Source: Chrysophaeum taylorii (taxonomy: Eukaryota; Sar; Pelagophyceae; Pelagomonadales; Pelagomonadaceae). From it: a DNA stretch of 45,000 bases. A model generated the notes under the pieces. The model ran no database searches, was not told the DNA's origin, and was given only the letters and a program-made list of their open reading frames with translations. Each line of letters opens with the position of its first letter. Within the stretch, counting starts at the first letter, position 1. Made by a program: the position numbers and the translations under genes. The stretch covers positions 1-45,000 of the forward strand of contig JAQMWT010000231.1 of NCBI GenBank assembly GCA_029834535.1. Direction: 5' to 3'. Below are positions 8,499 through 41,101 of the stretch, one piece after another.

Positions 8499-8571
8499 TT
8501 AATTTGTCCTGTTTTGTTGTTGTTTGTTCCATTGTTCACTGTTCTCATGTATATTGCACAAGTTCCGCCCC

Positions 8572-8790: not shown

Positions 8791-8792
8791 AC

Positions 8793-9302
<510 letters not shown>

Positions 9303-17589: not shown

Positions 17590-17788
17590 TAGAGAACAGT
17601 AATTTCTTTTGCGTTACCCTTCAGCAGAGCGAAAGAGCAGTGATAGTCTGCCCTCGAATCTGTCTCCTATAACGATGACAGCCGGTGTGAATAACACAGA
17701 GTTTTTCTTAAATCAAAAAGTGCTAAAGTTAAGGGAACTAACCCTAGAATAGGGGGTACTAACCCTAATTCGGATTTTCTATCTCTAT
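17590..17788 (-). repeat. 3' LTR of element B
   Basis: On the plus strand it runs from tagagaacagtaattt to attttctatctcta. It matches the 5' LTR at 27054-27248 with short indels and substitutions. Termini are not TG/CA. Inside the element it is followed by cagattgaactcggtgagcg, a sequence also found at the same place in E. Confidence 0.88.
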
Positions 17789-17829
17789 GCCGTCACAGAT
17801 TGAACTCGGTGAGCGAAATCTGGATCAAA

Positions 17830-20460: not shown

Positions 20461-21830
20461 CGGAATGCTACCATCCGGCGGAGGCGCCGGTTGAGGAACG
20501 AAAAATCCAGTTCAGGTGTCTCGTCGCTGACGAGGCTTGGATCAGCAGCGGAGGTTGGATCCGGTTCTTTGTGCTCGTCGTCATCTTCAGGTTTGTCATT
20601 CTGGTCGTCATCTTGAGTCTCGCCCTCACTTTTCGATTCCCGTCTAGCTTCCGGCATTTGCTGTTCGCTTATAGCTGGGAGCGGGTCCTCTTGCCGTGCC
20701 TCTGTTGGGATCTGCCTGAGTGCTTTGATCCGTTCGATTTCCTTGTTGCGGTTGACTGGCATGTCTGCATCAACGTGGAAGTCGTTAGAGGTCACGATTT
20801 TTCCATATCGCCCCTGATGTGCAAGCAGGATAGAGCTATGAACATCACGGACAAATCGGTCCGTGCCGGGGAGGTTGGGGACGTAATTGTTGCTGGTGAG
20901 ATAGGAGGCGGAGACGCTGGAGGGTTCCAGCTTGTGATTTTGAGGGTAGACAAAGGTGACAGGCTCGCCAAAGGGAAGGAGCCTCAAGAGCGGTGCCGTG
21001 GGTGACACGATGCGCCGGGGGACGGTGCAAGTCATGTTGGTGCGCGAGGGCAGTCCATGAGAGCGCTGGTTGTCGGCTTGGATCTTGTGCAGCAGAGCAA
21101 ATGGGTGATAGTACTCGGCGGCAATGGACTTTCCTTCGATGCGGACACTGCGCAGATTGAGGAGGCGAACTACAGTGCCTCGGGTGTTTTCCTTGATGAT
21201 GTTTTCCGCAAAGTTCCGCTGGTGGAGGTGGCGACCAATGATTTGAAACTGGATACCGAGTTGCACCTTGAGCGGGTGGAATGCTTCGGAGCGGAAAGTT
21301 GAGAATGCATCGGACGAGATGATTTTCACATTTACATCGAATTCGACCTTAATCACATTGGCCACGTTGAGGATGCCAGCCAGAACGTCCTGTGCGTCTA
21401 GTTTCCGCCGGAAATATATCCTTTTGTGTGCTGAGATAATACACACAAAATGCATGATGTAACGAAAGCCACCATAGCATTTGCTGATGCTCGGTTATGA
21501 GACATCCATGTGGAGGTGTTGGCCTGGAGCATAGGCTAGTTCATCCTGTGACCAGGAGGTGTTCTTGTGACGGAAGCTGACATGCGATTCACAGCGCTTG
21601 CATTCGCTGCAGTCTTGCAGATACCGATCATCACCTGGGCGGAGATTCGTTACATTGGCGGCAATCGTGCGGCGACGAATCTCTAGTTGCTGGTGATGTG
21701 TGCGGTGCCAGCGAGAGACCAAAAGCACTCTTTTAGCGTGCTGAATGGTACCGGCCTTGTGCAAGTGGGGCAGAGCGGCAGTCGAAGCGCTGGGGGGGCT
21801 GGGTCGCTTGTCGACTCGGACTTTAGCAAC
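20358..21830 (-). pseudogene. Integrase of element B, one in-frame stop
   Basis: The GAG-pre-integrase zinc-binding part is at 21764-21495 (HRTHHQQLEIRRR ... CSECKRCESH), ending with HLHMDVS that holds the first catalytic Asp. A TAA at 21495-21497 interrupts, and the same frame continues at 21455 with IISSDAFSTFRSEAF (second Asp) and HQRNFAENIIKEN (Glu). A C-terminal acidic, Glu/Asp/Pro-rich linker leads to RT. The order HHCC, D, D, E is the Copia integrase layout. The next gene, RT, is in a different frame. Confidence 0.78.
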
Positions 21831-21833
21831 GGT

Positions 21834-22402
21834 TGCCTCGGCAAGAAGTGTCTCGAGGTTTTTCGATTTGCTTGGTTTGCGGCTCGCATCATAGTGAGGA
21901 GATCCTCAGGGAGAATTCTGCAACCTGGTTGATGTCTCCGGGGCTGGGGATGCCATTGCGTATTGTTGCCCATTCGATGTGAAAGCTCACGTGGTGGTGC
22001 GATTCGTGGAGTGCGAGGACAGCGCTGTACTTTGCCTGCAGCATGTGGTGCGGGACGGCGTTGGCCAGTGCCTTAAACGCGAAGTTGCCTCGGCAAGAAG
22101 TGTCTCGAGGTTTTTCGATTTGCTTGGTTTGCGGCTCGCATCATAGTGAGCATCTGCTACGGCATTGTAGAGGGAGGTGAGGTTGAGGTCCTCCTCTGCT
22201 AAGAGACGGCTGGAGATCCTCAGGAAGAATTCTGCAACCTGGTTGATGTCTCCGGGGCTGGGGATGCCATTGCGTATTGTTGCCCATTCGATGTGAAAGC
22301 TCACGTGGTGGTGCGATTCGTGGAGTGCGAGGACAGCGCTGTACTTTGCCTGCAGCATGTGGTGCGGGACGGCGTTGGCCAGTGCCTTAAACGCGAAGTA
22401 CG
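21834..22402. repeat. Tandem duplication at the methyltransferase-integrase junction of B
   Basis: Copy 1 (about 21834-22083) and copy 2 (about 22086-22402) are direct repeats starting with gttgcctcggcaagaag. Copy 1 lacks about 64 bp present in copy 2 (22158-22221). The unit covers methyltransferase motif X and the linker to integrase, so motif X (ANAVPHHM) is present twice and the polyprotein frame is broken here. Near identity indicates a recent event. Confidence 0.88.
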
Positions 22403-24113
22403 GCGGGTGCTGTTGGAACAGACGGGGCAGTTCCGGGTCCGAGTGGTGTCCAAACTTTGCGATTTCGTTGAGGGTCGCATAGCGGACGTGGTCTGGAGAG
22501 ATCAGCATCGAGGCGTTGGAGTAGCTCGTGTTGGTTGGGTACGAGCCAGTGACCGAGTAGCACTCGGTGCTTTTCTGAAGCGTGTCTCCGATGTGGCCGA
22601 CATAGTCCGCGTAAGTGGGACGTGCTTTGGACATTATGAGTCCCTTGGGGTCATCGAGAGTAATTCGCCCTCGTGAGTCGATCGCGGCAAAGCCAGGATG
22701 CGAGCGATTCATGTAGTGGACCCAAGTGGACGGGCGCGAGCAGCTGTGAGTGGCGGCCAAGGAGGTGGTGTAGGCGACGACCAGAAAGGCGGTGCCCTTG
22801 GGAACATCCAGGGAATAGGCGTGCGCGGGGAGAAGACTGCGGGTTGGTGTGAACAGTCCAATATCTGAGGGGGCCTGGAGTGTAGGGTGAGGGAAGCGCG
22901 GGGGAAGTAGCCACAGGCGACGGCAGTAGACGGTGCCGGTGATGGCTCCATTCAAATGGCAAGCGCATTTGGACTCTGAGGGATGAAACCAAGCGGCGAG
23001 AGTTGGATGTTGCGACAAGTGATTGTGCAGCAATGTGAAAACCAGGAGATGGGAGATGTACGTCATGGTAGCGTAGGGGGTGCCGTCGGCATCTAGACCG
23101 AGATCCGTGAAGGGCTTGGTGAAGCGTGCAAGCATTTGACAGATGCGGGCATTTTCGGAAATCGAGAGTTTAGAGGCGTTGGCGGGTGCGTAGGGAAAGG
23201 TGGCCTTGTGCTGGTAATAGGCCAAGGTGGAGCGGGGCACGGTGCCACGAAGGGCGGGGTTGGCGATCCAGAGATCGTCGGGGATAGTGTTGCTGGGGTC
23301 CAGAAGTGGAACCATGCTCGGAGGAGATGCTAACCAAGGAGAAGCGTTTTTCTCGAGGTTGTACTCGGTGAGCGGGTGTCGGGCATAGACAGCGAGATAT
23401 CGGGTCTTGCTGATGACGTCGCCAGAGACGGAGGCATTGTAGACACCGGAGTGTCGGAAGTAGCCTAAGCGCTGATAGCATTTGGCGAGTTGGGTGTACT
23501 CGTGATTCGGGGGTTGGGAGGGACGTTCTCGACAATGGCGTATGTCGGGAGCGTGCAGCGAACAACGCGGATTTGTTCTGTGACGAAAAGGTCGGCGGTC
23601 ACCGGAGTGGCGTAGCCGTCGTATTCTTTCATTACACTCAAATGTTGACATGGCAGTGTGAAAACCGCTAAGTCGAAATGGGGTAGTCTGATTTTGCCGG
23701 TTTGCAGAGCGGCATATAAGCTTTCTTAGATCCGAATAATGCTGAGCGTGCGGGAAGAGTTGTTGCGCGCGGGCGCGCATAATAGGGTGAATTTCACAGG
23801 TGACCACGACAGTCATACGGTTGTCGAAGCGTTTGCGAAAAGAGATAAAGCCTTCTTGGTGAAGTCCACCTGCAATAATAGCTGTTTTTAGCGGAGGGGG
23901 TTGTGCTTGCACAGTGAGGTCCGCTGAGCCAGTGAATGCATATTGGACGACAGTACGCGGGAGGCTAATGAGTTCCGATAGGAATATGGAATGATGCTGT
24001 AGCTTAGCAAAATCCAACATTTGGGATTGCGAGCGTGTCTTTGCGACATGCTGTGTGATGTGTGCAAGTTCGTCCTTGAGTGACATTCGTGTTCCGGTGT
24101 GAAAACTAACCAC
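22086..24113 (-). pseudogene. C5-cytosine DNA methyltransferase region of element B
   Basis: Minus-strand frame from 24113. A motif I-like LKTAIIAGGLHQEG (near 23890-23850) is followed by TCEIHPIMRARAQQLFPHA and YSDLRKL, typical of motifs II-III (Glu at 23793-23795). The next part is in the +1 frame: LAVFTLPCQHLS is motif IV with Pro-Cys-Gln at 23645-23653, and YAIVENVPP is motif VI with Glu-Asn-Val at 23522-23530. The original frame then returns with SKTRYLAVYARHPL (motif VIII-like), a long target-recognition region of about 300 residues, HVRYATLNEIAKFG (motif IX-like) and LANAVPHHML (motif X, about 22350-22382). Two compensating frame changes flank 23460-23720. B keeps the canonical PCQ and ENV that A and D have lost or changed. 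It would methylate cytosine in DNA; the target is unknown. Confidence 0.8.
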
Positions 24114-24245
24114 GGCGCGGAATGTTTGCTTGGATGAGACGGCAGGGACAACAGGCCATTGGTTTGGCGATTGGCGATAACTATTGCTGTTTTTCCTATA
24201 AGCGTGTTATAATCGTGGGGATCCGCGGTCGACGTGTTCGTAAGC

Positions 24246-24767
24246 TCAGAAAGATATGGTTCGTGTGGCAATGGCGGGTCGGTTGCCTGGACGTTCAGAG
24301 CTTCGAGCTAAGATGTCGCGATAACCTGTAGACCTTTGCGGAATTGCGGGACGACCAGAAAACAAGATATAGGGCGTAACCCGAGGATTCTTTTTTATCC
24401 TTTGAGGAGAGACCTGCGGCCTGCAAGTACAACAGTTTGACACCGATGAAATGGCTGGTCAAGGTGCCTTTTCCCATACGCATGGTGTGTTCGGGAATCC
24501 GGCGTATGGACTCGGGCACAAAGTGTTGAATTGGCGAGTGAAGCAAAAGGATGTGCCACCGTCAATTAATGAAGTTTCAGTGCCGGGTCCATTGCATCCG
24601 TGCAGCGAGTTAGTCTTCTTTGAGGTCTTTCCTGGAGTGTAAGTGGCACAAAGAAAATCTGCGACTCTGGGTGATATTGTTGATGAGGTCGGGAAATTCG
24701 TCATCGTGAGGCTCGGGGCCTGATTGAGTAAGATGTGGTTGGCGGCACAGGCGTCGTCAGCAACCAT
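24246..24767 (-). pseudogene. Aspartic protease region of element B
   Basis: Minus-strand frame 24767-24459 contains TETSLIDGGTSFCF, the retropepsin active-site motif (D-G/S-G-x-S), with catalytic Asp at 24561-24563. The following frame (24546-24295) gives VKLLYLQAAGLSSK, resembling the hydrophobic second half of Copia proteases. The frame changes between them and before 24767. It would cut the B polyprotein. It lies between the acidic linker and the methyltransferase. Confidence 0.6.
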
Positions 24768-25636
24768 CAGCGAAAAAGCTGACTCTGGTGGAGAGCACGC
24801 ATGTAGTCACTGTGACGTTGTGCGTAGTCTTCGGCGGAATCATCTTCATCGTGGATATCGGGGATGGTGTCGTCGTAGAGGCCCAGCTGTCCATGATCAT
24901 CATAGAAACCGAGAAGGCCTTGGTCATCTTTTTCGTCAGTTTCGCCCTCATCAGGTGTATCATCCTGAGGATCGGACGATAGCACCTGAAGAAACTCCTC
25001 GGCATCGCAATCTGCCTCGGAGAGAAGTATCTCATCGGAGATGGTGGTGATGAGGTTGAGTAGCTTGTTCATGCGCTCGGAGCTGGACGTATGTTGGCGA
25101 CCGGCTTGGCTGAGATTCCGTATAGTTTGGAGCTTGCGACGGACTTCACGAAGGGGGACCTTAAATCGTTGGTCAGGAGTAGATGGCTTGAGTGGATGCG
25201 GTTGGGTTGGAAAGGTATCCTTGCGAAGATGCGGGTGCTCTCGTTTGTCGGGGGTGACTGGAGCAGCACGGGGATTTTGCTTTGTCTTCGTTGGGGTGAC
25301 AGGGGTGGCCTTGGGTTTTGGACTGTCATTGATGTCATAGTACGACGGAGAGCGAGGATTCGGAGGGCTTTTTTGGGGGGGGCTTCTTGGGATGTCGCGT
25401 GAGCTGTTTCTTCCTATAGGCGTGAAGGTGTTGGATGAGATCATTGTCGTCATCTTCATCGAGGTTGGCTTCCGTGAGAAAGACGGCAACAGGGTCGGTG
25501 TCGTCATTGGAGGCTTCATTGGGATCCGGAGGGATGTCGTCTTCAGAGGCGGTGTCTTCTTCCTCGGTGAAGTGGAGGCCATGACGGCGGGAGCGAAGAC
25601 GTGGATTATCCTTGTCCTTAGTCGGCAGACGACCAA
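24767..25636 (-). pseudogene. Gag-pol linker region of element B, acidic and Pro/Lys-rich
   Basis: Open minus-strand frame. The real continuation of gag enters it at the C8A6 run near 25375; upstream residues of this frame are a shadow. Lys/Pro-rich stretches (PRSPPQKSPPNPRS, KATPVTPTKTKQNPRA) are followed by a helical segment and an acidic repeat-like end (LLGFYDDHGQLGLYDD). No domain is recognised. It is probably the C-terminal, RNA-binding and linker part of gag. Confidence 0.5.
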
Positions 25637-26963
25637 AGTCAGTGACGAATCGCGATGGCTTGAAATTGAGGGTGGGATGAGGCTCGAGGTGAGCCCAAAA
25701 GTTGCGCTCAGAGCTGGAGATGACTGTGATGCGAGCGATTAGCTTGGGAAGGTGGTTGATGGCTTCATTGTCTTCGTCGAGTAATAGCGAGTCGTTTGGA
25801 GTACGTAGACAATTCGCAAGACGCGCGAAGCCCTTGGTGTGTGTTGGGGCGCGGGAGTCAAGCAAGCTTGGGGGATACTTGAAGCGTAGGAGTTGGTGGA
25901 TTTCCTCGAGGATCTTATCGTCGGAAAGTTGGAGAGAGGCGTCGTTGGTGATTTGGCGGAGTTGCTGCTGAACATGGCGCATATAGTCGATATAATGCGC
26001 AGGCTCGTGGATCTCCGGGTTGAACGGCGTGTCCAGGAAGGCATTATAGACATAATGCGCATGGTGGACGTGGTTCTGGCCCGTGTGCTTGTCGAGTGCG
26101 AGGCGAACTTGGAGTACGAATTCGAGTCCTATCGGATGGGAAGATCCGAGTGCGTCAATTTCGTCGTATGCTGGGTGCTTTACGGAGTCGCTACCGGCAT
26201 GCAGGAAACGGCGAAAGAGGGGACGCACGGTCTCGCGGAGGTACACGATGAAGTCGGCTTCTTTTCCTTGGAGGTGGTGTTACGTGATCGGATACAACTT
26301 GCCTTTCGTCATATCGGTCGGGTCCTTGTCTTGGTCTTTAAGTTCTTGGAGCTTTGGCTCGTAGACGTTCTCCAAGAAGTGTTTGCCGAACTTGCGGTAA
26401 GTACCCTTGTAGTAGACGTAACGGCCTTGGAAATCTTGCGTGTTCCCGGCGGTATAGTGGTTGTCGGGATCCTTATCGTATTCCTTGATGCAGTGGCTGA
26501 GAAGAACGTCAGCGAGATCGTTATATCCGCGCAAGACGGATTCCCACGTGTAGAAGCCCTGCAGAAAGTATTGTGTTGTGCCTGTTTCAGCCATTTGATC
26601 TTCGACGAACAGCTGCATGACACGAAACGAAAGCATTTGGGGCGTGACTTGCGCGGAGTCCATTGACTTGAGGACGGCGCTATGTGGGTCACTAAAGGTG
26701 TTAGCCTTGGTCTTGGGGTCTTGTTGAGCTGGAGGGGGGGGTGGAGCCGCAGCAGCGACTGCACGTGGTGGTTCCTGCATGGCATTAACTCGCGATTCGA
26801 GTGCTTGGAAGCGAGCGTCGTTGTCTTGTTTTTGTGCTGCCATCTCCCTTTGATGCCGAGCTTCGTGCGCTTGAGCTTGTTGGTGCATGTCTCTTTGGTA
26901 CTTGGCTTCTAAGCGAGCTTCTTGTTCTCTTATCTCATTTTGGAGGTCTTGATTGGTTGGCAT
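25335..26963 (-). pseudogene. Gag of element B, one in-frame TAA
   Basis: ATG at 26961-26963 (MPTNQDLQNEIREQEARLEA) begins a clear N-terminal coiled coil to about residue 70, then a Pro/Ala-rich spacer and a helical core. TAA at 26280-26282 splits the frame, which continues to 25335. A longer start at 27047 is open but lies in leader sequence next to the LTR. The second half has HHAHYVYNAFLDTPFNPE and an acidic tail (EEEDTASEDDIPPDPNE) ending in Lys/Pro. It follows the 5' LTR by about 90 bp, the expected gag position. It is unlike the gag of D and F. Confidence 0.68.
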
Positions 26964-26999
26964 TTTGCTTGGGTTCAGGAACGACAGCGAGCGGCGGGA

Positions 27000-27053
27000 C
27001 TCTTCTGGAAATCCTGGGGCTCTGCTGATACCGGGACTGGTGCCCAATACCTA
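27000..27053 (-). promoter_or_regulatory. Leader after the 5' LTR of B, possible primer-binding site
   Basis: On the minus strand the LTR end is followed by tattgggcaccagtcccggt and then atcagcagagcc. Copia elements often use a TGGTATCAGAGC-type site complementary to initiator tRNA-Met; here the related string is shifted about 22 bp from the LTR and has an insertion. E has a similar leader (ttggacccagtcaggtac) at the same distance, which supports a shared function. Confidence 0.35.
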
Positions 27054-27248
27054 CAGAACAGTAATTTCTACTGTGCTACCCGTCTGCAGAGCGAGAGAGC
27101 AGTGATAGTCTGCCCTCGAATCTGTCTCCTAGAACGAGGACAGCCGGCGTGAATAACACAGCGTTTCTTAAATCAAAAAGTGCTAAAGTTAAGGGAACTA
27201 ACCCTAGAGTGGGGGGTAATAACCCTAATTCGGATTTTCTATCTCTAG
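27054..27248 (-). repeat. 5' LTR of element B
   Basis: Matches 17590-17788. The plus-strand end tttctatctctag is followed by the target duplication tctt (27249-27252). It contains a G-run and two actaaccctaa-like stretches shared with the E LTR. Confidence 0.88.
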
Positions 27249-27252
27249 TCTT

Positions 27253-27763
27253 ATATACTTATTTCAACCACGAGAGCATGAACAAAACCGCTCTAGAGGC
27301 CTGGCCAGCCATTACCAAGGTATACAACAAACATTATCATCCCAACAAAACGAGAGCGATCATGCTCATCACGTTTAACCTTTATGAGACAGTGTCCTCT
27401 AAGGATGTCTCGTACTTGAAACAGCAATTTAACGCTGCTGTGTATAATCCTGACTGGTATGTACATGTTTTCATTGAACGTGTGCAGTCTTTCAGACATC
27501 TCTCGTTTCAACTTCACCAGGAGGAAACTAGTCTTCAATTTGATTCTTCCACGTTGTACAGGAAAGTTTATGAGGAGATTTACAAACACTTCGCGAATAA
27601 TACCAGCACCAACCGATATGACAGAGGTTGGGTCGAATGGTGTGTCATGTATGAGACTCGCACATCCCCTAGAGCTCAATCGGAAGCCAACAGACTTTGC
27701 CACCCGTCCAATTCCGCTCGCATTCTTGAGTTCGCGCTCGACCTATATAACTCCGTATATAAT
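27253..27763 (+). pseudogene. Gag of element D, middle part
   Basis: Open plus-strand frame with YFNHESMNKTALEAWPAI, HYHPNKTRA, LYETVSSKDVSYLKQQFN, DWYVHVFIERVQSF, VYEEIYKHF and WVEWCVMYETR. Each aligns in order with the F gag (FFNHESVNKPALAIW, STHPNKN, YESVSS, NWYAHAFVEELLAF, HEEIYKNY, LEWCKLFETR). This stretch is undamaged between the B insertion and the retroposon at 27764. Confidence 0.78.
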
Positions 27764-28158
27764 AAACTAAACTAACTTCATACCTCTCCCGAGCATGGGA
27801 GCCAGGCCGGACAGGCAGGAGCCGGTCCGGAATCACAGAGGAAAATCACGCAGTTGGGGCTGAGGCGAGGGACGAGGACTCGTTGATGACGGACCGCCAC
27901 TGCGCGCGGTCTTGTGCGAAGTCGTGCAAAAGCGTCGCAGGCCGCAAACGTGTTGGTCCACGAACAATCGACCTGTCCGTCGCGTTCTGCCCAACCGAGC
28001 GAACCCCATCCCAGCGCGGACTTTCCGGGTGCTAACCGGCCAGCCCGGGAGGCGAGCAGGCACCGTCTCACTCCGGGACGGCCGGGGCCGCCGCAGGGAG
28101 CAAGCGTGTTAGGCGCCGTCCTCCATCGCAACCAACGGTTAGCGATCGCAGGGTTAGA
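27764..28158 (-). mobile_element. SINE-like retroposon, full-length copy 2
   Basis: Minus orientation, same family as 16139-16530. The flanking duplication tatataat is at 27756-27763 and 28159-28166 (8 bp; one more base may be mutated). The tail is degenerate (aaactaaactaac). It splits the D gag, whose frame continues after the second duplication copy. Confidence 0.85.
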
Positions 28159-29156
28159 TATATAATGCGGAGGACAAAAGGCGACTTGAACCTCCTGTCT
28201 CTAGGATTCCCTACGTGGAGGGTCTATCTACACACCAGAGTCCTATAATTATACTAACTCAACTGCGGGACACCACGGACGCTGAACTTGACCATACTGC
28301 ACAGGTGTTTGCCACACTTACTGCCGCATCGTCTGGACCGTCGAAACCCCATTTTAACGCTAGACGACTCAGGAACACGAAAGACGCAAGTCAGCCGTTC
28401 TCTCGCAATGACCTTAGTTACTATGGACCTGGTGACTCTTGCGTCGCCAAATCACGTGGTCTTGGTCAATCTAATGATCGACCCGTCTATCCTCGAACTT
28501 TCGATCGCTCTGCCCGATCTGACATGAAATTGCTCCATCGCACCAAGCACACTATGCTTGCCCTCAAAGAACAATGCAGAGAACTCTCCAAACATGCTTC
28601 GCAGAACGCTACTACTTCGCAATTGCAAGATAATATCAATAAGATGTTCGAGACACTACTACAGTCTGCAGACATTATAGCAACTACCACTTCGGACGAT
28701 AACGCGGATCTTCTTCGCATTGATGAGCAACTCCAGTATGCCGAAGACCTCGTGCGGGACACTCTCCCACATCTGCTTTCGACCGAAATCTCGTTAAACT
28801 ATGGGTCAGGACAACTTACCGAGTCTGGACCCAACGCTACTCTTCCCACTGACTCTGATGGTCCTTCTCACGCCATTTCTGCCGAGTCGGTGAACTTTAC
28901 TGAAGCTGCCATTGCCCAGCTTTAGCCGGAGCAGCTAAATCGGCTATCCTCTCGTGTGACAGCAGCGATGTGCCGCCACAGCACGACGCAACCTACAATA
29001 CATTCGAACAGCCGTCCCTTAACTCAACCGACAACCGCTGATCTCTCGCCTTTTGATCTTGAAAGTGGATTAGGTGTTGACAATGACGACTCCCCCTGTC
29101 GTCCCTGTCACATTTACTCATGTCATTATCACGTCCAAGTTGTTAAACCAGCCTAA
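28159..29156 (+). pseudogene. Gag of element D, C-terminal part, with candidate cleavage site
   Basis: The frame from 28215 continues the gag: HFNARRLRNTKDASQ, DLSYYGPGDS and NDRPVYPRTF align with the F gag. Helical segments follow, then STEISLNYGSGQ at about 28778-28814, one of three copies of a likely protease site. TAG at 28923-28925 interrupts, but the same frame stays open to 29156. The protease then follows in the next frame (+1). No CCHC zinc knuckle is seen. Confidence 0.68.
28778..28808 (+). other. Candidate polyprotein cleavage site 1 (gag/protease side)
   Basis: Encodes STEISLNYGS. The DNA core is tcgttaaacta. Near-identical peptides occur at 39901-39931 and 42048-42079. Retroviral and Copia proteases often cut at hydrophobic or aromatic residues such as Tyr-Pro or Tyr-Gly, so Tyr-Gly is the likely scissile bond by analogy. 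Confidence 0.55.
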
Positions 29157-29159
29157 TTT

Positions 29160-29460
29160 GTATGCAGCTAGCATCCCTTCTACCAGTGTCCACAGCGAAA
29201 ATGCCTTTCTTACCAAGTATATGAAGGAACATAACCTCCCCCTCCACTTTCAATTTCTCTACTTAGATAGTTGCGCTTCCATCTCGCTCATGACGACTTT
29301 TGATTTTGAAATCCCTAAGCATATTGTACCAATCGACCCTAAAAGCGCCCCTGTTGTCCAAATCGCCACAGGCCAACAACAAGTTTCACACATCATGCTA
29401 ACTAAGGACATTGTATCTCCTCTACCGGATCACCCAGGTGTCGGTTACGTGAAAAACTGA
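29160..29460 (+). pseudogene. Aspartic protease of element D
   Basis: Plus-strand frame containing FLYLDSCASISLMTTFDF, the Copia protease active site LDSGAS with Gly changed to Cys (catalytic Asp at 29266-29268). It then has VVQIATGQQQVSHI, matching the variable-substrate ANG...V stretch of Copia proteases, and ends at TGA 29458-29460. The Cys replacement and early stop suggest loss of function. It lies directly after gag, as expected. Confidence 0.7.
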
Positions 29461-29807
29461 CTACGCTCTCTTCCTCAAACCTGTGAAAGGACGGCATCTT
29501 TTCATTTTGAGTGCACCAAGTGGAATAAGGCTCAACTTACTGTCACGCTTAACGACAGTGATCAACCAAGTTTGTCCAATCTCACCAGCCTTATGGACAA
29601 GGATGTCAAGGTACCCATTCACTTGGTCGATCACGACTTACCAGCATTACCTTGCTTACCCTATGAGCTTGCACGTGACAGAAACATGGAATTACGCTCA
29701 CTGGCTTTTCCGCTTAAAAGGTGCAATGAGAATCGTGACCTGTGTCACTACTATGCTTATATTCTCAATAAATTACCTTCACGTCCTTGGCTCCGTCCAT
29801 TACTACT
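29461..29807 (+). pseudogene. Protease C-terminus and linker of D up to the E insertion
   Basis: The frame at 29572-29807 (VKVPIHLVDHDLPALPCLPY ...) is open across the junction with the E LTR, and the sequence continues in frame after the duplicated target at 38375 (NLRIRNN). No domain is recognised. Confidence 0.5.
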
Positions 29808-29992
29808 TAGAGAACAGTAAAAATCACTGTGCCTCTGGTAGAGAATGATGGCAGTGGTAGTGCCACCCTATTGCCCTGTCTCTAACGACACAAAGAGCGG
29901 CACGGTGTTCGACACCGCGATTTTATTGCTGATTGGGTGTGAGTGTGATAGGAGGGGGGGGTACTAACCCTAAATCAAATTTCTATCTGTAC
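29808..29992 (-). repeat. 3' LTR of element E
   Basis: On the plus strand it runs from tagagaacagtaaaaatcac to aatttctatctgtac. It has high similarity to 38191-38374, with differences mainly in the G-run and a few substitutions. On the minus strand an AATAAA polyadenylation signal (29920-29927) is kept in both LTRs. Confidence 0.9.
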
Positions 29993-30000
29993 GCCCTCGC

Positions 30001-33000
30001 AGATTGAACTCGGTGATGAGCGAAATCTGGAACAAACAAAACAAATGTCTGGCCAAAGACAACGAGAGGTTGAGTTGTGAAGTGTTTTGTGATGAGTCAT
30101 GTGATGAGAAATGTGCGAAGTGCACGAGCGAGATAGAGTAGAGCGGAGTAGCAGGGGAGTGTAAGTGAGAAAGGAGAAAGAGCGCAAAGTAGAACGTGGA
30201 ATAGGTTAAAAGTGGAAACAAAGTGAAAAGGAGAATGCAAGAAGAGGAGGCAACTAAGCTGAAAGGGAAAAGCATCGATCATAAAGAAGGGGGAACGTGA
30301 AAGAAGATGCTAAATGGGCTAAGCTTGAACGTGGCGATTACAGTACTAGAGATCAGATCATCATCTTGTTCAGTGACTGATGAAATAAGGATTGTAATGA
30401 CAACATCGTGGAGAATAAGTGAGTGTACTAGTGTCATCGTTGAATACGAGAGTCGCATGCATTAAGTCGTAGGTGTTCCATGATATAGGATGACTGTGCG
30501 TGCGGGTGGATAAATCCCAAGTGGCTGAGGGATCCTCGTAGTAGAGCGGGTGGTCTAATGGATAACAATGCAGGGATCATGGGTCAGGCGGTCGTGAAGT
30601 GTACAGCAGACCAGTGATTGATCGAAAGGCGAATAGTGAGAGTGACCATAGGAATGACATTCGATTGTGACTAAAGTTGGGCTATTAAGGGTGCGACGAT
30701 GTGACTGAGCGGCAGCGTTGTCCCATGAAGAGATACGTTCATTTAACCGAGTCGGTTTCGACATGGTAAAGAAATCGTCGTTGCGATAGCGAGTAGCGCG
30801 GAGCTGTTCCTGGAAGATGAGAGAACCAGAATTGCCTGTCACATACGTGTCGAAGCTGTCGTCCTGAGTGTAGCGTGGGGCAGCCGAAGCTAAACTATGA
30901 GCGTCTAAAATAACGTGCGAATAACCATCGTGTGACGTTGATATCGGGATAAAGTGGTCTGGGGGTGGCCAATAAATATGAAACAATTCTAAAGATAATT
31001 TTGCGATGCTAGAGTTTTGTCGTTAGTCCTGAGTTTTGGTTGTAGACCTGGAATTGTGGTCTGGTGGAGGTTGCCATTTGCTATCATCAAAAGATGATTG
31101 GACTGAGACGGAGGTTCGTGGGCGTATCGCGTATGATGGTGGATGCAGGCGTGTGTCCTGTGCAGAAGAGTCGGTGCCCTGTGCAGAAGAGTCGGGCAAC
31201 CGGAATAAATGCCTGAAGGCGATGGACTGTGCGAAGACATTGTCCTTGCCTGGGGGAGAGCCGACTTCGAAAGTATGGTCGGAGTCGCATCTTTCGTGTT
31301 CTATTCGGCAAAGTAGTCCTGGGTCGTGACAATCGACGGATCCAGAATTCATTTCATGTCCGGAGTCGTTTTCACCAGAATCAAACTTCCCTTGATGTAC
31401 AAGCGCGAGTGAGCGCGGTGCATCCCTGGTGAATTGTGCTGTGACTGAGAGTTGAGACATTCGACAGAAGGTTGTTGTCGATATGCGAGAGCTGTACAGT
31501 ATATAACGTGTTGGGAGCGTATGTTTCAAGCGAGAATTAATCTGTGGACGGGAGATGACCGCAGAGTGAATATGATGTGAGACAATGGCCATAGTGCGAG
31601 GACTGTCCAATAAGGAGTCATGCGAGACTGTGGCTGGAAGCGAGTGTGCGGGAATAAAGGAAGAGATAGGCATGGCAATTGACTTCCCTTGATTCGCAAC
31701 TCAACTGGGTGGGGCTAGCGGTGTGCGGCAGTGACATTCGGTAGAATGCTGGAAGCAGTGCGCGCGTCCAACCTGTGGAGATTGGGGGTTGTCCTCGCGG
31801 GTGCTACGGAAAATGTCGACTGGGTGCGAATCGCAATGGCGGCTGTTGGGCTCAGAGTTCTGCAAGATCGAACCTGCAGCGTGAACGGAGAGGAGTGAGC
31901 CGGGTGCGTCATACGAGCGTAACATGCGAGTGCAGTCTGAGCTGTGTCCGAAGCAGAATTCTGACCGTAATGTCGACAGATGCGAAACGTGAACAGAGCT
32001 GGGCGAGGATATCGCGTGAAGTCGTGCTGTAACCGAACCATAGAGGTGCAGAACTTCAACGTCACGCATAGTGCTGGGAGGGACGTTAAAGAGGCGAGCA
32101 AAGGACTCTGCGTGCGGCCGTCATTTAGTGGCGGGCTTTTGTTGTGCGAGTTTGGCGATAACTGCGACATGTGGCGTTGGCATGACAGAACTTCATTTGC
32201 ATATGGCAGCACACAGGATGAAATCGAGCGAGCTGGAACTTGAAAGGTGTGACCTGCAAGAGACTGATGGAAGAGCGTGGGAGGTTCGGAATTGCATTGA
32301 TGACGAAACTTAGTGTCATCACGAATCGTCACGAATTGAATCGTCGAGAGTCGCGTCGAAGCGGGGAGGGACGACGAGTGCTCATCAGGTCTTGTCGTGT
32401 GACAGAGGTCCTTATGAAGAGGGACTTCAGTACACGCCTTGAAGTGAGTTCCGATGTAGCCAGAGTACCCATAGATAGCGTGGCTGACACGAGTCGTAAC
32501 GGGCCTTGTCGGCGGGGGAAAAAGAATGCGCCCTCGTAATTTGAACTTGGTGAAACCTTAGAATTGCCGGTGAGGCTGAGAGACCGTGGTTGCGGAACGA
32601 GCGCAGAGCCGGGCGGCGGTCGGAGGGGGCGCGGTAGCGGTGACGGAGACGACAGTGTTGTGCTTATCCTGAACCAAAAGGTGTTCGGGCATCGTACTGT
32701 GCAACAAGCCAGCGTGCATCTCAGTTGACTGTGAGTGTACCATGAGGATGGCGCAATGTTGGTAGTTTAAACCGAGAGGGGCGGTGAGCGTGTCGTCGCG
32801 AGTGCGCAGGAGCCTGTACGGTGTCTGGGCTGTAATCGGAGTATGACGTATGGCGTCATACAAGGCGATGGGAACTGAATCAGACGTGATAGAGCTGGCA
32901 AACAGTGCGGTGAGCAGCATGTCGGGGGTGACGCTCAGAGATGAGGGTGGAACGCAGTCCACGTGGATCTTTGTTGCCGTATATGGCAGTACCACGAGCG

Positions 33001-35657
33001 TGAATATCTGACATGAAGGAAATGCTTGTGTCCCAAACGAGAATGCGGGTATAGTCGCATGGGATGGTCATCTGGTCTCTGCTGCAATCAATAGCTATGA
33101 AGGAAACCACTTTAGAAACCATGAGCACATGGGTGGAGTCTGGCGGCCAAGGTCCCTGTGTGATAGACTGAGTTGCATCCAAAATATAGTTCATGATCCG
33201 GGATGACTCAAGCGTTGCGATGAGTTCGTGCTCGAGATCATAGTCGTCCAGTATATGACGTGAAGTGGTCGCAAAGGGGCGATGCATCGACCTGGTGTCA
33301 GGGGAGACCGAGGTGGTGCAGTGACCTGCCTGGCTGAGGTGGCCGTGCTGGTAGGAGTCCAGTGGGTGCGTATAACTCTGGCGAGTGCTGCCATTACCTA
33401 GTGCCTGATCCGCATTCGTGTAGGGAGGCGAGATCGTCTGTGCTGGCGCGGATTGCAGCGGCAGGGGCGGGTCAGGTGCCTGGGAGGCTGGAAGGCGGCC
33501 TTTGTCTTCCAGAGGCGAAGGGAGCAAGCGAAGCTGTAGCTTCATCTCATCGTGATCAGATAGGCTCAATGAGCTAGTGCGCGTAATCGTGGTGCGCTTA
33601 TCTGTATCTTCATGATGTACCTGTGCGTCCTGCGGTGGTGCTTCTGCGAGCGGGACATGTCTGAAGGACTGATCCATCGGATGGGGTGCATCAGCTATGA
33701 ATGAGACAGGAGCCAGTAGCAGTGCAAGGTCGGGTGACAGAACGTGTGCGTGGTCGAGCGATTGAGCGTTGGACCTGGGCTTTGTCTGCTTAGTCTGGAA
33801 CCGTGCTGTGCAGCTGGTTTGCATTGTCTCGTCTGCTACATCGATGGGCTGACTGGTGTAGCTAACTTTTGTGGTCTTATCTTTCGCCTTGTCGTCCAAG
33901 AGAGACTGCGAGATAGTAGTCGTTGCTATGTGCGAGACTAGGAGTAGCTGTCGAGCAGCGGTGGGGAGCTGAGTGCTTTGTTGTCAGGCAGTTTCTGTGG
34001 CTGTGGAGTTCCAGCGACATGGTTGCGCAGCGCCAGACGTCTTGGCAGTGGGGATTGCCGCATAGTGACTCGCAAGTTCAAAGTCGGACGTCGGAGAATG
34101 CGTCGAATGAGCTCGGAGGTCCCCAATTTGAATACGCCCTCGTAAGGCGTGCGCGACATGGTGTAGGCGCGAGCAGCTTATGTTGGTGATCGGAAGGTCG
34201 TGAGACACATGGCGGCGCGGAGCGTCGGTGGAAATGACGAGTGTCTTGGTGTTAAAGGCGGTGACGCGGAGAGCATCGAGAAGCGGGTCATGCTCCAAGA
34301 GCAAAATCGCGTAATGCGAGTGTTCCGAAATCAGTGCCAAAATGGGTGTGGCGCGCGGCTGGCCTGTCTGCAAGGTAGTGCAGATGGGCGCGTGAGCTGA
34401 GATCCCGTGGTGGAGAATATCCGGCCTGGGATGCGTGGGGTCCAGTGCGGGAAATCGAAAAGGGGGATCGCCGAAGGAGAGTGCAAGTTCGCTGGGGTCA
34501 TAGTACGTGAGTGCAATAGAGCCAAGGGCGATGGAAGGGTCAATCATGCTGGGGGCATCCTCAATGACGGAGATGCGGGGACCAGAGCAACGAGTGCCGT
34601 AGTGACCAGGATTTGCCCATAGGCGTGTAGTGCTTGCGAAGGTGCGGGCATGTGACATGCGTCCTCGAATGAGGAGTGACGTGCCGAGGGATAAGACGCT
34701 TTTGAGGGAGGCATCGTGCGTGACTTGGGTGCATGTTTGCGGTGGAGCCGGCAGTTGGCTTTGAATCTTCGTCGCATATTCCTGTTATGCGAAAATGCTG
34801 ACAGGAGCGGTTCAGGTGGAGCGAGTCTGTGCAGTGCGCGCGGAGAATGTCTCCTGAGAGCGCAACGTCGATTTTCCGGAGGCAGCGCAAGCGTGTGGCT
34901 TCCAGAAGCGAGCTATGCAAGCGGACATAAAGGACCGAAGTGGTCGCAATAGAAGCGTGCGCAATTTGCGGCTGATCGGAGCGTTCGTAACTCTAGAAAT
35001 CTGTGTCTGTTACTGCGGCCATGGGGGAGGCTTGCCAGAAGCTTGGTCGTGGCGAGACATAAGGGTCAGCATCCGAAAGGAGTGCGTCCTCTGACTGAGA
35101 GTTGAAGAGCGGGTGATCATGTGCTGCGACTGATGCTCGTGCGATGACATCCATCGAATCGCAACATGGTGATCGCAGATGGGTCCACGCAATCTGCTGA
35201 GCAGTGTCGTCCAGTGCATCCGGCCGGGGGGGTGGATGGTGAGTGCAGCAGCGAGCGCCGGTGAGCGGTAGTGTGCGCCTGTCTTCGCAGAGAGAGGGCA
35301 GCGAGGTGGAACCAGCTTCGAAGTGATCGGGAGCGGCCGATCGAGAGATATCGAACAAGGCGGAGTGCCTGGCGAATCTGAGCTGATACCTGCAGGTGCG
35401 GTGAGTTCCTGCGAGTATGGTGACCGTGGGACCGTCGACAGCGTGTCTTGTCCTTGTGGATGCGGCATAGCGGGGGCATTGGTGATAGCGCTTGGATCAG
35501 GCGGCTGATCGGGGATGGTCGGGGAGAATATATTCGAGGCTAGTGAAGTTGGCCTTGCTTCTTCACTGTATGCGCCAGACCGGGGGGCTGAATCCGAAAG
35601 AAGGTTGTCAGTGGCCTGCGGCTCTGTTGCCTGGGGCATTGAAGACGTTGGGGCCAT
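30001..35657 (-). other. Internal region of E, decayed coding sequence of unknown type
   Basis: Open minus-strand frames at 30555-30986, 31023-31673, 31715-32332, 32558-32995, 32880-33899, 33984-34658 and 35010-35657 follow each other and overlap in different frames. The pattern suggests one long gene broken by frameshifts. The peptides are rich in Ser, His, Pro, Thr and Ala. Two segments (TPYRLLRTRDDTL...HCAILMVHS near 32800 and HSHYAILLLEHDPLLDALRV near 34300) look related. An LRGR[TI] tetrapeptide context recurs. No enzyme motif is seen, and I do not recognise the protein. Confidence 0.4.
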
Positions 35658-35788
35658 GGATCTTTGAGTGTGGTTGCCATAGTCGATGTAGGCATAATGT
35701 TCGGGAACATCTCGAGGTGTCTTGTGCGTTGACTTGTCGGTCGTGGGACCGAGGTGGCTTGGCGTTCCGTCGGCAAGGCTGCTTCCTG

Positions 35789-36110
35789 GGCCGTTGTGCC
35801 CGAAGAGAGAAGAAGCCCCTGTGCATGTCTTGGCAGCATGATGGTGATCATGACCATCAGGGAGAGTTGTTGGTCGATAATTCGAACATTTTCGACTCTT
35901 GATCTACATTGTTTTGCTTTTTGGTTTCGCTTTGCACGTCATCAGTGCTGCCGTCTGGGCCGTTGTGCCCAAAGAGAGAGGAAGCCCTTATGCATGCCGT
36001 GGCAGCTTGATGGTGTTCGTTACCATCGTATATAGAGCTGTCTGTTGCTGATTCCGAAGTAGTCGAATCTTGATGTTGGTGGTATTGTTTCTTGGTGTGA
36101 CTTTGCACGT
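35789..36110 (-). repeat. Tandem duplication of about 165 bp in E
   Basis: 35789-35938 and 35956-36110 share gggccgttgtgccc(g/a)aag, gagagaagcc, gtggcagc and ttcgacttgatctacat/ttgatgttggt. The two copies have diverged by several indels. Confidence 0.8.
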
Positions 36111-37712
36111 GGAGAACGTCGCAGGCGGCAGGGGTACGGTCGCCGGTGTTGGATGTGCGCCCTCGCAACCCGAACGCGGTGATGTGGTCGAGTTGGTATG
36201 AACCAGGTGGCCAAGGAGGCGAGCGTGTACAAAGTGGGACTGTGGGTGCCAGAGAGGCGAAGAGTGATGTTGCAGAGGAGGGGGGGGCGGAGATGGTGGG
36301 GGTTGAGAACAGAAAGGCGGAGCGGGCGGTGAACCAGGAGAAACGGGTCCGGGGCATCCGTGGCGGTGGTGATGGTACCCGGGTAGAATCGGGAGAGAGG
36401 CATCGGAGGTTTGTTCGGAAGGGGATGAAGGTAGGTGATGAATGGGGAAAGGAGGTGAAAGATCCAATGCAGCATCTTGGGTGGGGTTGGTGGCATCCAA
36501 GGAGGCAAGAATGGTGTGGAAGACGGCGTTGGTTTCGGAGTGGGAGTTGCGGATGTCAGCGTGGGCAGTTTCGAGCGCCTTGAGCTGGGTGTCCTCAAGA
36601 TGGAGTTCAGCGTGGGTGGAGACCAGTTCGTCGGCTTGGGTGGCGAGCTTGGCGGTGGCGAAGGCGAAGGCAGCGTCGGTTATGGTGAGTTTGGCGGCTG
36701 AGGAGGACAAAGCGTCGTCCTTGAGAGTGAGCGTGGCCTTGGTTGCGGCCAAGTCGGCGGTTTGGGAGTCGAGTGCAGCCTGGGTGGTGGCCAACTCGCG
36801 TTGGAGCGCAGACGGAGGTGCATTGGAACTTGGAGAAAGAAGGTGGCGTGATGCTCGGGTGGTGACGGGAGAAGGGTCGTAGCCATGGAGTGCGTAATCA
36901 CGCGGGTGGAGGTGAAAATCGGGGGGGCAGCGACTTTCCAAAGTTGAGGAAGATCGGGCAGGAAGGTCCGATGGTTGGGCGGCGGGAGCTTGAGCCGCGG
37001 AAGGAGCTTGGATAGGAATGGAAGTGCCGGAGCCGTCGTGGCCGTAGGTGGCATGGTCTTGTGGGTGGAGATGAAAGTCTCGAGGAGAGTGACTTGCGGA
37101 AGATGATGGATATCGGACAGGAGGGTCCGACGGTGGGGCGGCAGGAGCTTTAGCCGCGGTGGGGGCTTGGTCAGGGATGGCGGTGCCGGGGCCGTCATGG
37201 CCGTAGGTGGCATGATCGTCGGGAAGGGGGTGAGTGTTGCGGCGAGTGGGTGGACGAGGATGTTGGGGAACTTGAAGAGTTTGAGGAAATGGTGAAGGGG
37301 GAGTTGGCGAAAGTGGGGAGTTAGGCTCCAGTGAAGGAGGTGGAGGCTCAGGTGGAGTTGGTGGAGTGAAGGGAGCAAAGAAGAGTGGTGGTGGTGGTGG
37401 ATTGTTCAACATCGCTGGTGCGATATTCGAATAAGATGGAGTGTCCTCGTGAATGTAGGGTGTACCAGGTTGTGGAGTAACCTTGGCTATGCCAGGGTCC
37501 GGAGGGAAGGCAGTGGGGGCCGAGTTTGACGTGGGGTGTTTGACATCCGGCGGAGTGGACGGCAGAAGGTGGGTTTTGTCCATGTTCGAGAACGTGTTGA
37601 ACAGCAGGAGGGGGGGTGACCATCGGGATGATCGGGTCTTGGGTCGCGACTTCGTGGAAAGTTTGCTTGAGGGGGGTTTCGGTAAGAACGGCTGGTGGGG
37701 AAGCCAGTTCAA
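35988..37712 (-). CDS. Gag-like Pro-rich coiled-coil protein of E, 574 codons
   Basis: Open minus-strand frame. N-terminal two thirds are extremely Pro-rich with 2-3 tandem units of about 53 residues (HATYGHDG..T.IP.QAP motif). A long regular coiled coil follows at about residues 310-440 (ALQRELATTQAALDSQ, ADLAATKATL, KLATQADELVST), and a Pro/His-rich tail ends at 35988. The start at 37712 is only the first usable codon after a frame break: an upstream frame (38010-37743) carries the true N-terminus. It is likely the structural protein of this element because of its place just after the 5' LTR. No sequence kinship with B or D gag was seen. Confidence 0.5.
   Translation of the reverse strand: MNWLPHQPFLPKPPSSKLSTKSRPKTRSSRWSPPLLLFNTFSNMDKTHLLPSTPPDVKHPTSNSAPTAFPPDPGIAKVTPQPGTPYIHEDTPSYSNIAPAMLNNPPPPPLFFAPFTPPTPPEPPPPSLEPNSPLSPTPPSPFPQTLQVPQHPRPPTRRNTHPLPDDHATYGHDGPGTAIPDQAPTAAKAPAAPPSDPPVRYPSSSASHSPRDFHLHPQDHATYGHDGSGTSIPIQAPSAAQAPAAQPSDLPARSSSTLESRCPPDFHLHPRDYALHGYDPSPVTTRASRHLLSPSSNAPPSALQRELATTQAALDSQTADLAATKATLTLKDDALSSSAAKLTITDAAFAFATAKLATQADELVSTHAELHLEDTQLKALETAHADIRNSHSETNAVFHTILASLDATNPTQDAALDLSPPFPIHHLPSSPSEQTSDASLPILPGYHHHRHGCPGPVSPGSPPAPPFCSQPPPSPPPPPLQHHSSPLWHPQSHFVHARLLGHLVHTNSTTSPRSGCEGAHPTPATVPLPPATFSTCKVTPRNNTTNIKIRLLRNQQQTALYTMVTNTIKLPRHA
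36880..37215 (-). repeat. About 158-bp coding tandem repeat in the E Pro-rich ORF
   Basis: Units centred near 36885, 37045 and 37203 each contain gtaggtggcatg(g/a)tc or a diverged form, encode the YGHDG (or HGYD) motif, and keep the reading frame. The first unit is partial and diverged. Confidence 0.75.
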
Positions 37713-37742
37713 GTTGCTCGTCCTGGTCGAGTTGCTCGTTCA

Positions 37743-38010
37743 TAGCTTAGACTGTTGCGGCGAAATTAGCTTGTTCGACAGCATGTTATGCGGCGAACGC
37801 AGCATTTTCGGCAGCGAGTTCTGCAGCGATCGCATCACATCCGGCGTGGAAATCAGCTTTGATATCGTCGAGCTGTTGCAAAAGCCAGAGAGCTTGTTCT
37901 TGTGATGGGGTGAATTTCATCAAATAGTCCAGATTCAGACTTGTGAAGTCGTGAGTCGCCATCGTGTTGGGGCTGCGTTTTTGCGCTGTTGTTGGTTGCT
38001 TTGCGTCCAC
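37743..38010 (-). pseudogene. N-terminal part of the E gag-like gene
   Basis: Frame from ATG 38010 (MDAKQPTTAQKRSP) with a probable alternative ATG at MATHDFTSL (37962), helical, ending at TAA 37786. The same frame has a second stop before an ATG at 37743 (MNEQLDQDEQ) and then overlaps the 574-codon frame in another phase. It begins about 180 bp after the 5' LTR, the expected place for a gag start. Confidence 0.5.
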
Positions 38011-38190
38011 ACTTTTTCACACCTTCTCACCAGTAGCAGGCGATTACACTTGACTACGGTCTTAGAAACTTCAGGAACTTCAGGAGATTGCTTTTACCTG
38101 GAAATCATGGGTGTTTGTCCGAGACGTCGATCGAGATCGATGTCTTTCGGAGGGACGTTTATCTACCAGTACCTGACTGGGTCCAAACCG

Positions 38191-38374
38191 AGAGAACAGT
38201 AAAAATCACTGTGCCCCTGGTAGAGAATGATGGCAGTGGTAGTGCCACCCTATTTCCCTGTTTCTAACGACACAAAGAGCGGCACGGTGTTCGACACAGC
38301 GATTTTATTGGTGATTGGGTGTGAGTGTGATATAAGGGGGGGGGGGTACCCTAAATCGAATTTTATATCTCTAC
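38191..38374 (-). repeat. 5' LTR of element E
   Basis: Matches 29808-29992. On the minus strand it starts with gtagagatataaaattc, giving a TATAAAA string near the outer end, and holds AATAAA at 38302-38309. The leader beyond it on the minus strand (ttggacccagtcaggtac) resembles that of B. Confidence 0.9.
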
Positions 38375-38448
38375 TACTGAACCTCCGCATACGGAACAAT
38401 TATGTGCGGAACAACACAACGCCATTGGCCTGACTACATACGCGACCA

Positions 38449-39725
38449 GTGTTTTTGTCTGTTCAACATGGCAAGCCTCGCAAGCCATCAGTCATGTTAC
38501 TCTGTTCTGGTCTATCAACCCCTGCGTTCCTGTCACAAGCCAACAATGACTTGGTCTTGAACATCAATGTTAAAGTTGCTGTCGTGTCTGATGATACTCC
38601 TGTGTGCATGTTACGTAGACGACTTCCATATGTGTTAATTTCTCCATCCCTTCTCTCCTATATTAATCACCTCCACTTTATAACTGAAGAGGAGAGACGT
38701 GAACTGTACTGTGACATCATAGAAATCACTCCCCCGTGCACAGATCGTAATTTGTCGAAGAACACCGAAACTTCCGACCTTACCAGCTTACTTGACGATG
38801 CCCTCTTCGACAGCATGCTCACCATCGTCAAGTTGCTCAAGCCCCTCGTTCTTATGGCGCGGATAACTCCCCCACACAAACAGGTACACCGTGATCACAT
38901 TTCCGTGGCCAATCTCATCCATGCCACACTCAATTATACGGTCGATGTGGTCGATCGATTTCCAACGTTCCTCTGCGGCGATTACCTATCCCGAGAGAGA
39001 CGGATTTGTGTTGCTCGTAGATATAACACGGGCAGCATTGATATGCTTGCCTGGCCCAATCTCATCACCCTAAACGATTCTTGGACTTTGCTGACGATAT
39101 CAACTCTATTCCGAAAACTCTCTGGCTATCCAATGATCGCCTAAAGACTGGATCCGCATCTACCCTGATCCTCCGTTGGTTCCTTCACCTAAACCCTTTC
39201 CTTTATACACGCGCACAGGCTCTGTTCGGTTAAGTTTGAACGAACTTGAACCTTAAGTCTCCGCAAGTGCAAGCGCACCCTCAGGTCGACACTGCTCGCG
39301 GCCCTCTTCATGCCATTCACAGTCTACTAACTCGGTGCACACTTGTTATGCCACACTGTCTCGCTTACGACTCAGCTCGCGACCGATTCTCGTTTAAGGA
39401 CAAGCACTTAGCCCTAGAATATTATCATCTATCTCACAATCGGCATCTTGGATTCTCACGGATAGCGATCGCCAGCTTGGCTCCAAAATGCACTCAATGC
39501 TTGCTCCCGTGCCCACAATACGGGGATACGCCAACATCATCTTACTCGATCCACGTAATGGCAAACTTCGATATCCAACGCGTTCCGAGCTTATTAGAGC
39601 AAATAAGCACACTCGCTCGCAAGAGTCCTTCTTGCGTTCGCTGAAGAAGGACCTTTGCTGTGATCTTCTCGGCAATGCTCTACCGGCTGGTACTTATCAT
39701 ACGCTCCATACGCACATATCTGTCG
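38449..39725 (+). pseudogene. C5-cytosine DNA methyltransferase region of element D
   Basis: The frame 38449-39144 has a motif I-like MLLCSGLSTPAFLSQ (38494-38535), then VAVVSDD, and CDIIEITPPCTDRNLSKN as motif IV with Pro-Pro-Cys at 38731-38739. The motif VI position reads LVLMARITPPH, with Glu lost (E retained in A and B). Motif VIII is YLSRERRICVARR near 38985-39021. A stop at 39142-39144 and frame changes follow. TIRGYANIILLDP and TRSEL near 39520-39595 correspond to motif IX, and LGNALPAG at 39668-39691 to motif X. About 400 bp of the target-recognition region present in A are missing near 39260-39290. In this copy the catalytic Glu and the domain between VIII and IX are lost, so it is inactive. 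It lies between protease and integrase, as in B. Confidence 0.78.
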
Positions 39726-39738
39726 CATAATCGTCGAC

Positions 39739-41060: not shown

Positions 41061-41101
41061 ACGGTCAACTTCGTATTTCCTCCAAGCTCACCTTCACGTA
41101 C

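Follow-up and report, generated by a model that had tools for sequence, protein, structure and literature searches.

Methylation of DNA is the mark by which cells silence jumping elements, and retrotransposons that carry a cytosine methyltransferase (MTase) make one ask whether such a parasite of the genome writes its own silencing mark. In the passages of one report drawn on here, DNA methyltransferases (DNMTs) are described in long interspersed nuclear elements (LINE) and DIRS elements of Symbiodinium and in Gypsy elements of Klebsormidium; the MTases of SymbioDIRS-Dnmt3 carry out de novo methylation of CG in yeast genomic DNA, and a Symbiodinium Copia element 'lacks any DNMT domain' (PMC5890265). 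A single sentence of a second paper, in an excerpt that also describes orphan DNMTs, names long terminal repeat (LTR) Copia elements and DIRS as DNMT3 carriers, citing de Mendoza 2018 (PMC12344493). Here we examine a stretch of 45,000 nucleotides from the pelagophyte Chrysophaeum taylorii (contig JAQMWT010000231.1, positions 1 to 45,000 of the forward strand; hereafter the window) that holds three elements, A, B and D. They are almost certainly decayed members of three Ty1/Copia families with a C5-cytosine MTase between a putative protease and the integrase in pol.

A first-pass annotation of the window, made from the letters alone, had proposed such a Copia family and had named de Mendoza 2018 as a precedent. 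That reference is correct, although the elements described there are LINE, DIRS and Gypsy, and none is Copia. Our survey covered the 70.8 Mb assembly (697 contigs); the copy counts given for each element type are lower bounds, although a few contigs may be duplicates (C10 and C297 score identically). Two genes of the PsaA/PsaB family lie on one contig, C697 (103,599 bp), which makes a plastid-bearing alga the most likely host; a PsaB fragment, L051, matches PsaB chains of red-lineage algae in near-ties at 791-794 bits.

Identity of the methyltransferase domain

The MTase observation is confirmed in A, B and D. All three modules lie where they had been annotated, their motifs were located by translation, and they are indeed split over frames: B is broken around motifs IV-VI, and A is spread over several frames. 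The ordered C5-MTase motifs that had been listed are found in the three elements, except that window D lacks the Glu of motif VI (ARITPPH), present as AEMTPPH in 8/8 aligned D-type copies. The target-recognition region of window D is also reduced, from about 195 profile positions to about 110 bp.

A PF00145 search had been suggested as a check. Because the frames are broken, no Pfam MTase match was obtained with the six window frames that carry MTase sequence and were tested (frames of at least 100 residues); B-type copies elsewhere in the genome exceed the PF00145 cut-off. In L024, an uninterrupted B-type copy of 1952 residues, PF00145 matches residues 349-475 (E 1.1e-7, 32 bits, cut-off 22), and the same frame holds a weak rve match at 1016-1110, below cut-off, and RVT_2 (1.6e-38).

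For A and D the evidence comes from relatives. A database search with the D MTase returned one protein, P0001 (28% identity, E 4.9e-33), which matches PF00145 at 3.2e-11; a profile search with A4 returned six more, two of them from MMETSP, with PF00145 in 6/6 (P0003, 1.3e-16). The PF00145 E-values of these seven proteins, from metagenomes and MMETSP, range from 1e-16 to 1e-7, and the three longest (P0001, P0004 and P0005) run on into integrase. A profile built solely from the seven, independent and PF00145-positive, spans from before motif IV to motif X. It matches genome copies near full length (best E 3.7e-65 for A, 3e-68 for D and 1.3e-25 for B) and also scores the window pieces of A (2.6e-30, 5.7e-21), D (1.8e-23, 1.7e-12) and B (8.5e-14); 0/2499 shuffled frames pass E 0.001. 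All three modules are linked to PF00145, A and D by way of these seven proteins. On its own, P0003 aligns through residues 1-531 with D-type copies, a span that reaches from motif I to motif X, and it matches 126 pieces at 71 scored genome places (best E 7e-35). When P0001 is added to A/D, hhalign aligns them with B over 496 columns through motif X (probability 97.3, E 1.8e-11). In a Foldseek search with the P0003 model, 48 of the 50 matches listed are C5-type MTases and the other two HEN1 methyltransferases; no DNMT3 is named among these 50, which is not decisive given the low confidence of the model.

Catalytic residues were counted in 21 copies with open frames (eight B-type, five A-type and eight D-type), a choice that favours intact ones. 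Interrupted or partial loci had been dropped beforehand: 16 of the 24 fetched for B, four of 12 for D (L038, L039, L041, L042) and 0/5 for A. Pro-Cys of motif IV and Arg of motif VIII are present in 21/21 and Glu of motif VI in 20/21; motif X has its Asn in 21/21 and its Pro in 20/21.

Several observations weigh against this identification. PF00145 matches of B-type copies mostly end before the second half of the model, and the four A/D-type proteins tested gave no Pfam MTase match on their own. Alignment of B with A/D in hhalign is not significant when P0001 is left out (probability 1.6); because of these last two results, the link is one that runs via intermediates. P0003 reaches 35.5 bits against dcm (TIGR00675) through motif X, below the cut-off of 100.65, and its structural model is of low confidence (mean predicted local distance difference test, pLDDT, 51). 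Motif I departs from the usual form (IIAGGL, LLCSGL), and motif VIII of B has a single Arg (SKTR or SKNR). On balance, profiles and motifs support C5-cytosine MTase domains in A, B and D, and the annotators' interpretation, Copia with a C5-MTase, is supported as well. Profile or sequence searches of PDB sequences found no match for A3, A5 or P0003; A2 matched only a ribosomal protein (E 0.97), and the best match of B (A1) was M.HhaI (E 0.044).

Copies, selection and proposed role

Genome searches scored the B-type MTase at at least 74 places (among 782 candidates; at least 84 matching pieces), the A-type at at least 116 (among 1071; at least 120 pieces) and the D-type at at least 150 (among 920; at least 150 pieces). 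PF00145 itself has 57 matches in the genome. Two are host-like: C634 (L001) is DNMT2-like, with a CFT motif typical of DNMT2, and C621 (L009) is DNMT5-like, its single open frame encoding an MTase and then SNF2. B-type MTase was found in 22/22 of the other 55 loci that were read (L010-L028 at length, L043-L045 in part), and no further host-type MTase was seen among the PF00145 loci read.

A listed A or D MTase lies 2.5-6 kb upstream on the same strand in 63 of the best 150 RVT_2 matches, and none lies downstream or on the other strand; the remaining 87 are unmatched, the lists being best matches with B-type not included. MTase precedes integrase in each long copy read (L024, L029-L032). One frame holds MTase, integrase and the start of reverse transcriptase (RT) in L029 (A-type, 1464 residues) and MTase, integrase and RT in L031 (D-type, 1691 residues, RVT_2 7.7e-42); both L024 and L031 encode integrase ahead of RVT_2 within a single frame, with rve matches that are weak and below cut-off. 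Of the annotated position between protease and integrase, the placement upstream of integrase stands, while the putative protease is recognised only from its motif and place (IDGGAS in L024, DSCAS in window D), with no Pfam match.

Assignment to Copia holds (RVT_2 E 1e-38 to 1e-42, the MTase-integrase-RT order, the LTRs of B), but the single family that had been proposed becomes two or three. A and D form a pair of sister families (identity of about 47% in the MTase and 51.6% in the window integrase), and B is remote: the RT of L024 is 34% identical to that of A and 32% to that of D. No LTR pair was detected for the A and D families within the fetched stretches L029-L032. The gag frame of L024 (578 residues) overlaps the 1952-residue frame with protease, MTase, integrase and RT at the offset of a -1 shift, an arrangement also found in L025 and L019; in L031, gag, protease and MTase-integrase-RT share one reading frame and are separated by stops (L031 1321-9231). 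As judged from these frames, B-type and D-type elements would have two expression strategies. The coordinates of L024 (gag 2000-3736, pol 3697-9555) fit a -1 frameshift. L024 also carries a tandem duplication of 218 bp at 1557-1991.

Identities of MTase and integrase rise together (Spearman 0.89, 28 non-independent pairs), and the pairs A+D and P0004+P0005 cluster in both trees. The integrase tree places B with A+D (0.948), the MTase tree with P0001, a placement that is unsupported (0.152). One old acquisition followed by joint descent of MTase and integrase would fit this pattern, which does not prove it. Viral contigs and prokaryote genomes yielded no MTase relative at the sensitivity of the search, and the B MTase alone had no match among 7993 candidates scored.

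Purifying selection keeps the MTase in all three families, as shown by the ratio of nonsynonymous to synonymous substitution rates (dN/dS; pairwise Nei-Gojobori on open-frame copies, a choice biased against stops, not directly against replacements). Median dS and dN/dS are 0.85 and 0.065 for A (5 copies), 0.24 and 0.20 for D (8 copies), and 0.37 and 0.22 for B (8 copies). In A (0.01) and D (0.08) the lowest values fall at residues 100-200, with motifs VI-VIII, and in B (0.159) at residues 0-100, with motifs I and IV. Constraint extends to the target-recognition part as well (0.06-0.29 over residue blocks 200-500).

As the MTase adjoins the integrase and is conserved, self-methylation of retrotransposon cDNA is directly testable. 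We regard the following mechanism as reasonably probable. The MTase would travel with the integrase, or remain joined to it, in the virus-like particle, and would act on fresh double-stranded cDNA or on integration-site DNA; a pre-methylated copy would thus be delivered. The likely benefit would be immediate silencing of the new copy, or immediate setting of its chromatin, which would reduce the damage done to the host and, through the host, to the element. A broader proposal, for which we have less confidence and which we put forward tentatively, is an old C5-MTase clade found solely in Copia-type retroelements, those of algae and of further microbial eukaryotes. Fused upstream of integrase and passed on together with it, the MTase would be a component of the integration machinery and would methylate cDNA or the integration site, either ahead of insertion or in its course. 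If that were true, the parasite itself would install the silencing mark on its own new copies.

Two sets of data tell against self-methylation. Integrase is under tighter constraint than the MTase (dN/dS 0.047 vs 0.149 in D, 0.032 vs 0.063 in A), a two- to three-fold difference in both pairs that were compared. Substitutions give little sign of CpG methylation: C-to-T differences at CG over CH are 1.38-fold in B and 1.06-fold in A and D, and G-to-A differences at CG over other G are 1.08 in B, 1.32 in A and 1.16 in D. CG observed/expected is 0.83-1.05 in MTase domains, 1.03 in the nested element of the window, where no MTase was detected, and 1.26-1.43 in five presumed host stretches (two MTase loci and three unchecked element flanks). 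CpG decay was considered as a sign of methylation, and the C-to-T and G-to-A ratios do not clearly support it; the CpG methylation signal is weak at most and not specific to MTase carriers.

The same footprint bears on other explanations. It is unlikely that the MTase methylates host DNA or competing elements genome-wide instead of its own cDNA: hundreds of MTase copies would suit such a role, as would the activity of SymbioDIRS-Dnmt3 on yeast genomic CG in the published excerpt (PMC5890265), but the five presumed host stretches are not depleted in CG. We consider improbable, too, a structural or DNA-binding role in integration (targeting, cDNA protection) with methylation secondary or lost. 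The fixed position upstream of integrase in the long copies, the constraint on the target-recognition blocks and the unclear CpG footprint agree with it; the retention of Pro-Cys and of the motif VI Glu, in copies whose choice by open frame favours intact ones, and the minima of dN/dS over motifs VI-VIII in A and D do not.

DNMT2-type enzymes methylate tRNA, and the substrate might be RNA (the genomic RNA of the element or a primer tRNA) instead of DNA. Some enzymes with the C5-MTase fold act on RNA, the Foldseek matches listed include DNMT2, and the CpG footprint is weak; however, the target-recognition part, of about 350 residues, is unlike the compact DNMT2, and the best library matches are named DNA methyltransferase (a name being no test), which leaves an RNA substrate quite improbable. 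Chance motif resemblance, assembly artefact or contamination, suggested by window frames that alone lack a Pfam MTase match and by the duplicate-like contigs C10 and C297, is refuted by hundreds of copies on many contigs, independent relatives and the absence of decoy matches, and is practically out of the question.

Features of the window

Positions of the features in the 45,000-nucleotide window (RVT_2 is PF07727)
Feature	Position	Strand	Basis
A MTase domain, over several frames	429..2115	+	profile matches, motifs
A MTase motifs	IV 692-715, VI 809-853, VIII 956-994, X 2080-2103	+	translation
A integrase region	2755..3438	+	51.6% identity to D integrase region
A RT-RNase H frame	3526..6234	+	PF07727 E=1.6e-38
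Element B, Ty1/Copia LTR retrotransposon (gag, protease, MTase, integrase, RT-RNase H)	17590..27247	-	LTR pair, RVT_2
B 3' LTR	17590..17787	-	LTR pair
B RT-RNase H frame	17833..20511	-	PF07727 E=2.9e-39; RNase H by position, not profile
B integrase region (first part of frame)	20361..21494	-	identity to L024 pol frame
B MTase domain	22173..23930	-	77% identity to natural copy L024; motifs; profile E=8.5e-14
B MTase motifs	I 23847-23882, IV 23645-23659, VI 23522-23533, VIII 23379-23423, X 22365-22391	-	translation
B 5' LTR	27052..27247	-	LTR pair
D gag and protease region, 5' of nested insertion	27065..29457	+	position and motif only
Nested LTR element dividing D between protease and MTase	29808..38373	-	185-bp terminal repeats, 91.9% identical
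D MTase domain	38434..39727	+	profile matches, motifs
D MTase motifs	I 38494-38529, IV 38725-38751, VIII 38980-39021, X 39674-39691	+	translation
D integrase region	40197..41321	+	rve E=0.0067, below cut-off; homologous to A and B integrase regions
D RT region	41486..42955	+	46% identity to A pol frame

Element A is a plus-strand Copia element that extends from the left edge of the window; its motif I stretch lies within frame 429-632. The LTRs of B are 91.4% identical, its termini are TAGAGA...TCTCTA, and the flanks TTCTT/GTCTT match at 4/5 positions (a target duplication of about 5 bp). Positions 20487-21896 of B are 88.7% identical to residues 895-1364 of L024 pol, a stretch that includes the weak rve match. 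Inside B, a tandem duplication at 21832-22399 (188 bp, 99.5% identical; 67 bp, 100% identical) doubles motif X, which is repeated downstream at 22051-22077.

Element D, also a plus-strand Copia element, extends over about 27.1-44.2 kb. Its gag and protease region gave no Pfam family over cut-off; the protease-like motif is at 29266-29283, and 27284-27643 matches L031. Its RT resumes past a short insertion, at 43383-43637 and 43972-44175. The element nested in D ends in TAGAGA...TCTCTA with CTACT on each side, and stands outside the MTase system. It resembles B over about 80 bp at the junction of LTR and internal region; the six frames tested had no Pfam match, and family profiles find no RT or MTase in it. 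Possibly it is non-autonomous and depends on the B family for its mobilisation. On the strength of two weak tblastn matches to B pol (E 3e-4 and 0.002) it was a candidate for a fourth MTase; with no match to the family profile in it at E 0.01, this was rejected as chance.

Three copies of a repeat of about 393 bp, sharing 94.7-97.0% identity, lie at 16137-16531, 27765-28153 and 42979-43372, the last two inside D, with partial copies at 11950-12007 and 43643-43717. A long simple-repeat tract within 8756-11262 is open in several frames (CLSV-type repeats and their reverse) and is followed by an 88% direct repeat (9256-10274 / 10278-11262).

Comparison with described retrotransposons

No description of a Copia element with this arrangement was recognised, by title or abstract, among the papers listed by the literature searches. 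An MTase placed before a Copia integrase, for which our searches detected no close relative of cellular or viral origin, is a new form among DNMT retrotransposons. A LINE, DIRS or Gypsy replication module is excluded by the Copia RVT_2 and by integrase upstream of RT. The excerpt that also names 'LTR Copia' as a DNMT3 carrier (PMC12344493) gives no structure, and the paper it cites describes Gypsy and DIRS; its wording may be a slip or an undescribed case.

The likenesses below refer to the passages of PMC5890265 drawn on here. KnitGypsy-Dnmt3 of Klebsormidium nitens is likewise an LTR retrotransposon with a C5-MTase inside Pol and under purifying selection (Ka/Ks <0.2), but it is a Gypsy element with a Dnmt3-related enzyme and DIRS-like repeats, whereas here the element is Copia (RVT_2) and the MTase stands directly before integrase. 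SymbioDIRS-Dnmt3 shares a C5-MTase in Pol, with its de novo activity seen in yeast, and differs in being DIRS with a tyrosine recombinase, in contrast to the rve-type integrase of an LTR Copia. Both of these MTases are of Dnmt3 type, and the MTase described here is not assigned to a host family. SymbioLINE-Dnmt offers an orphan C5-MTase lineage with many intronless retroelement copies; however, it is a LINE with the MTase in ORF1 and is CG-depleted, while the Copia elements show no clear CG loss specific to MTase carriers. With an MTase directly before its integrase, the Copia superfamily joins the few retroelements that carry cytosine MTases, and it does so with hundreds of copies, under purifying selection, and in a combination shared with proteins of other microbial eukaryotes (two of these proteins from transcriptomes).

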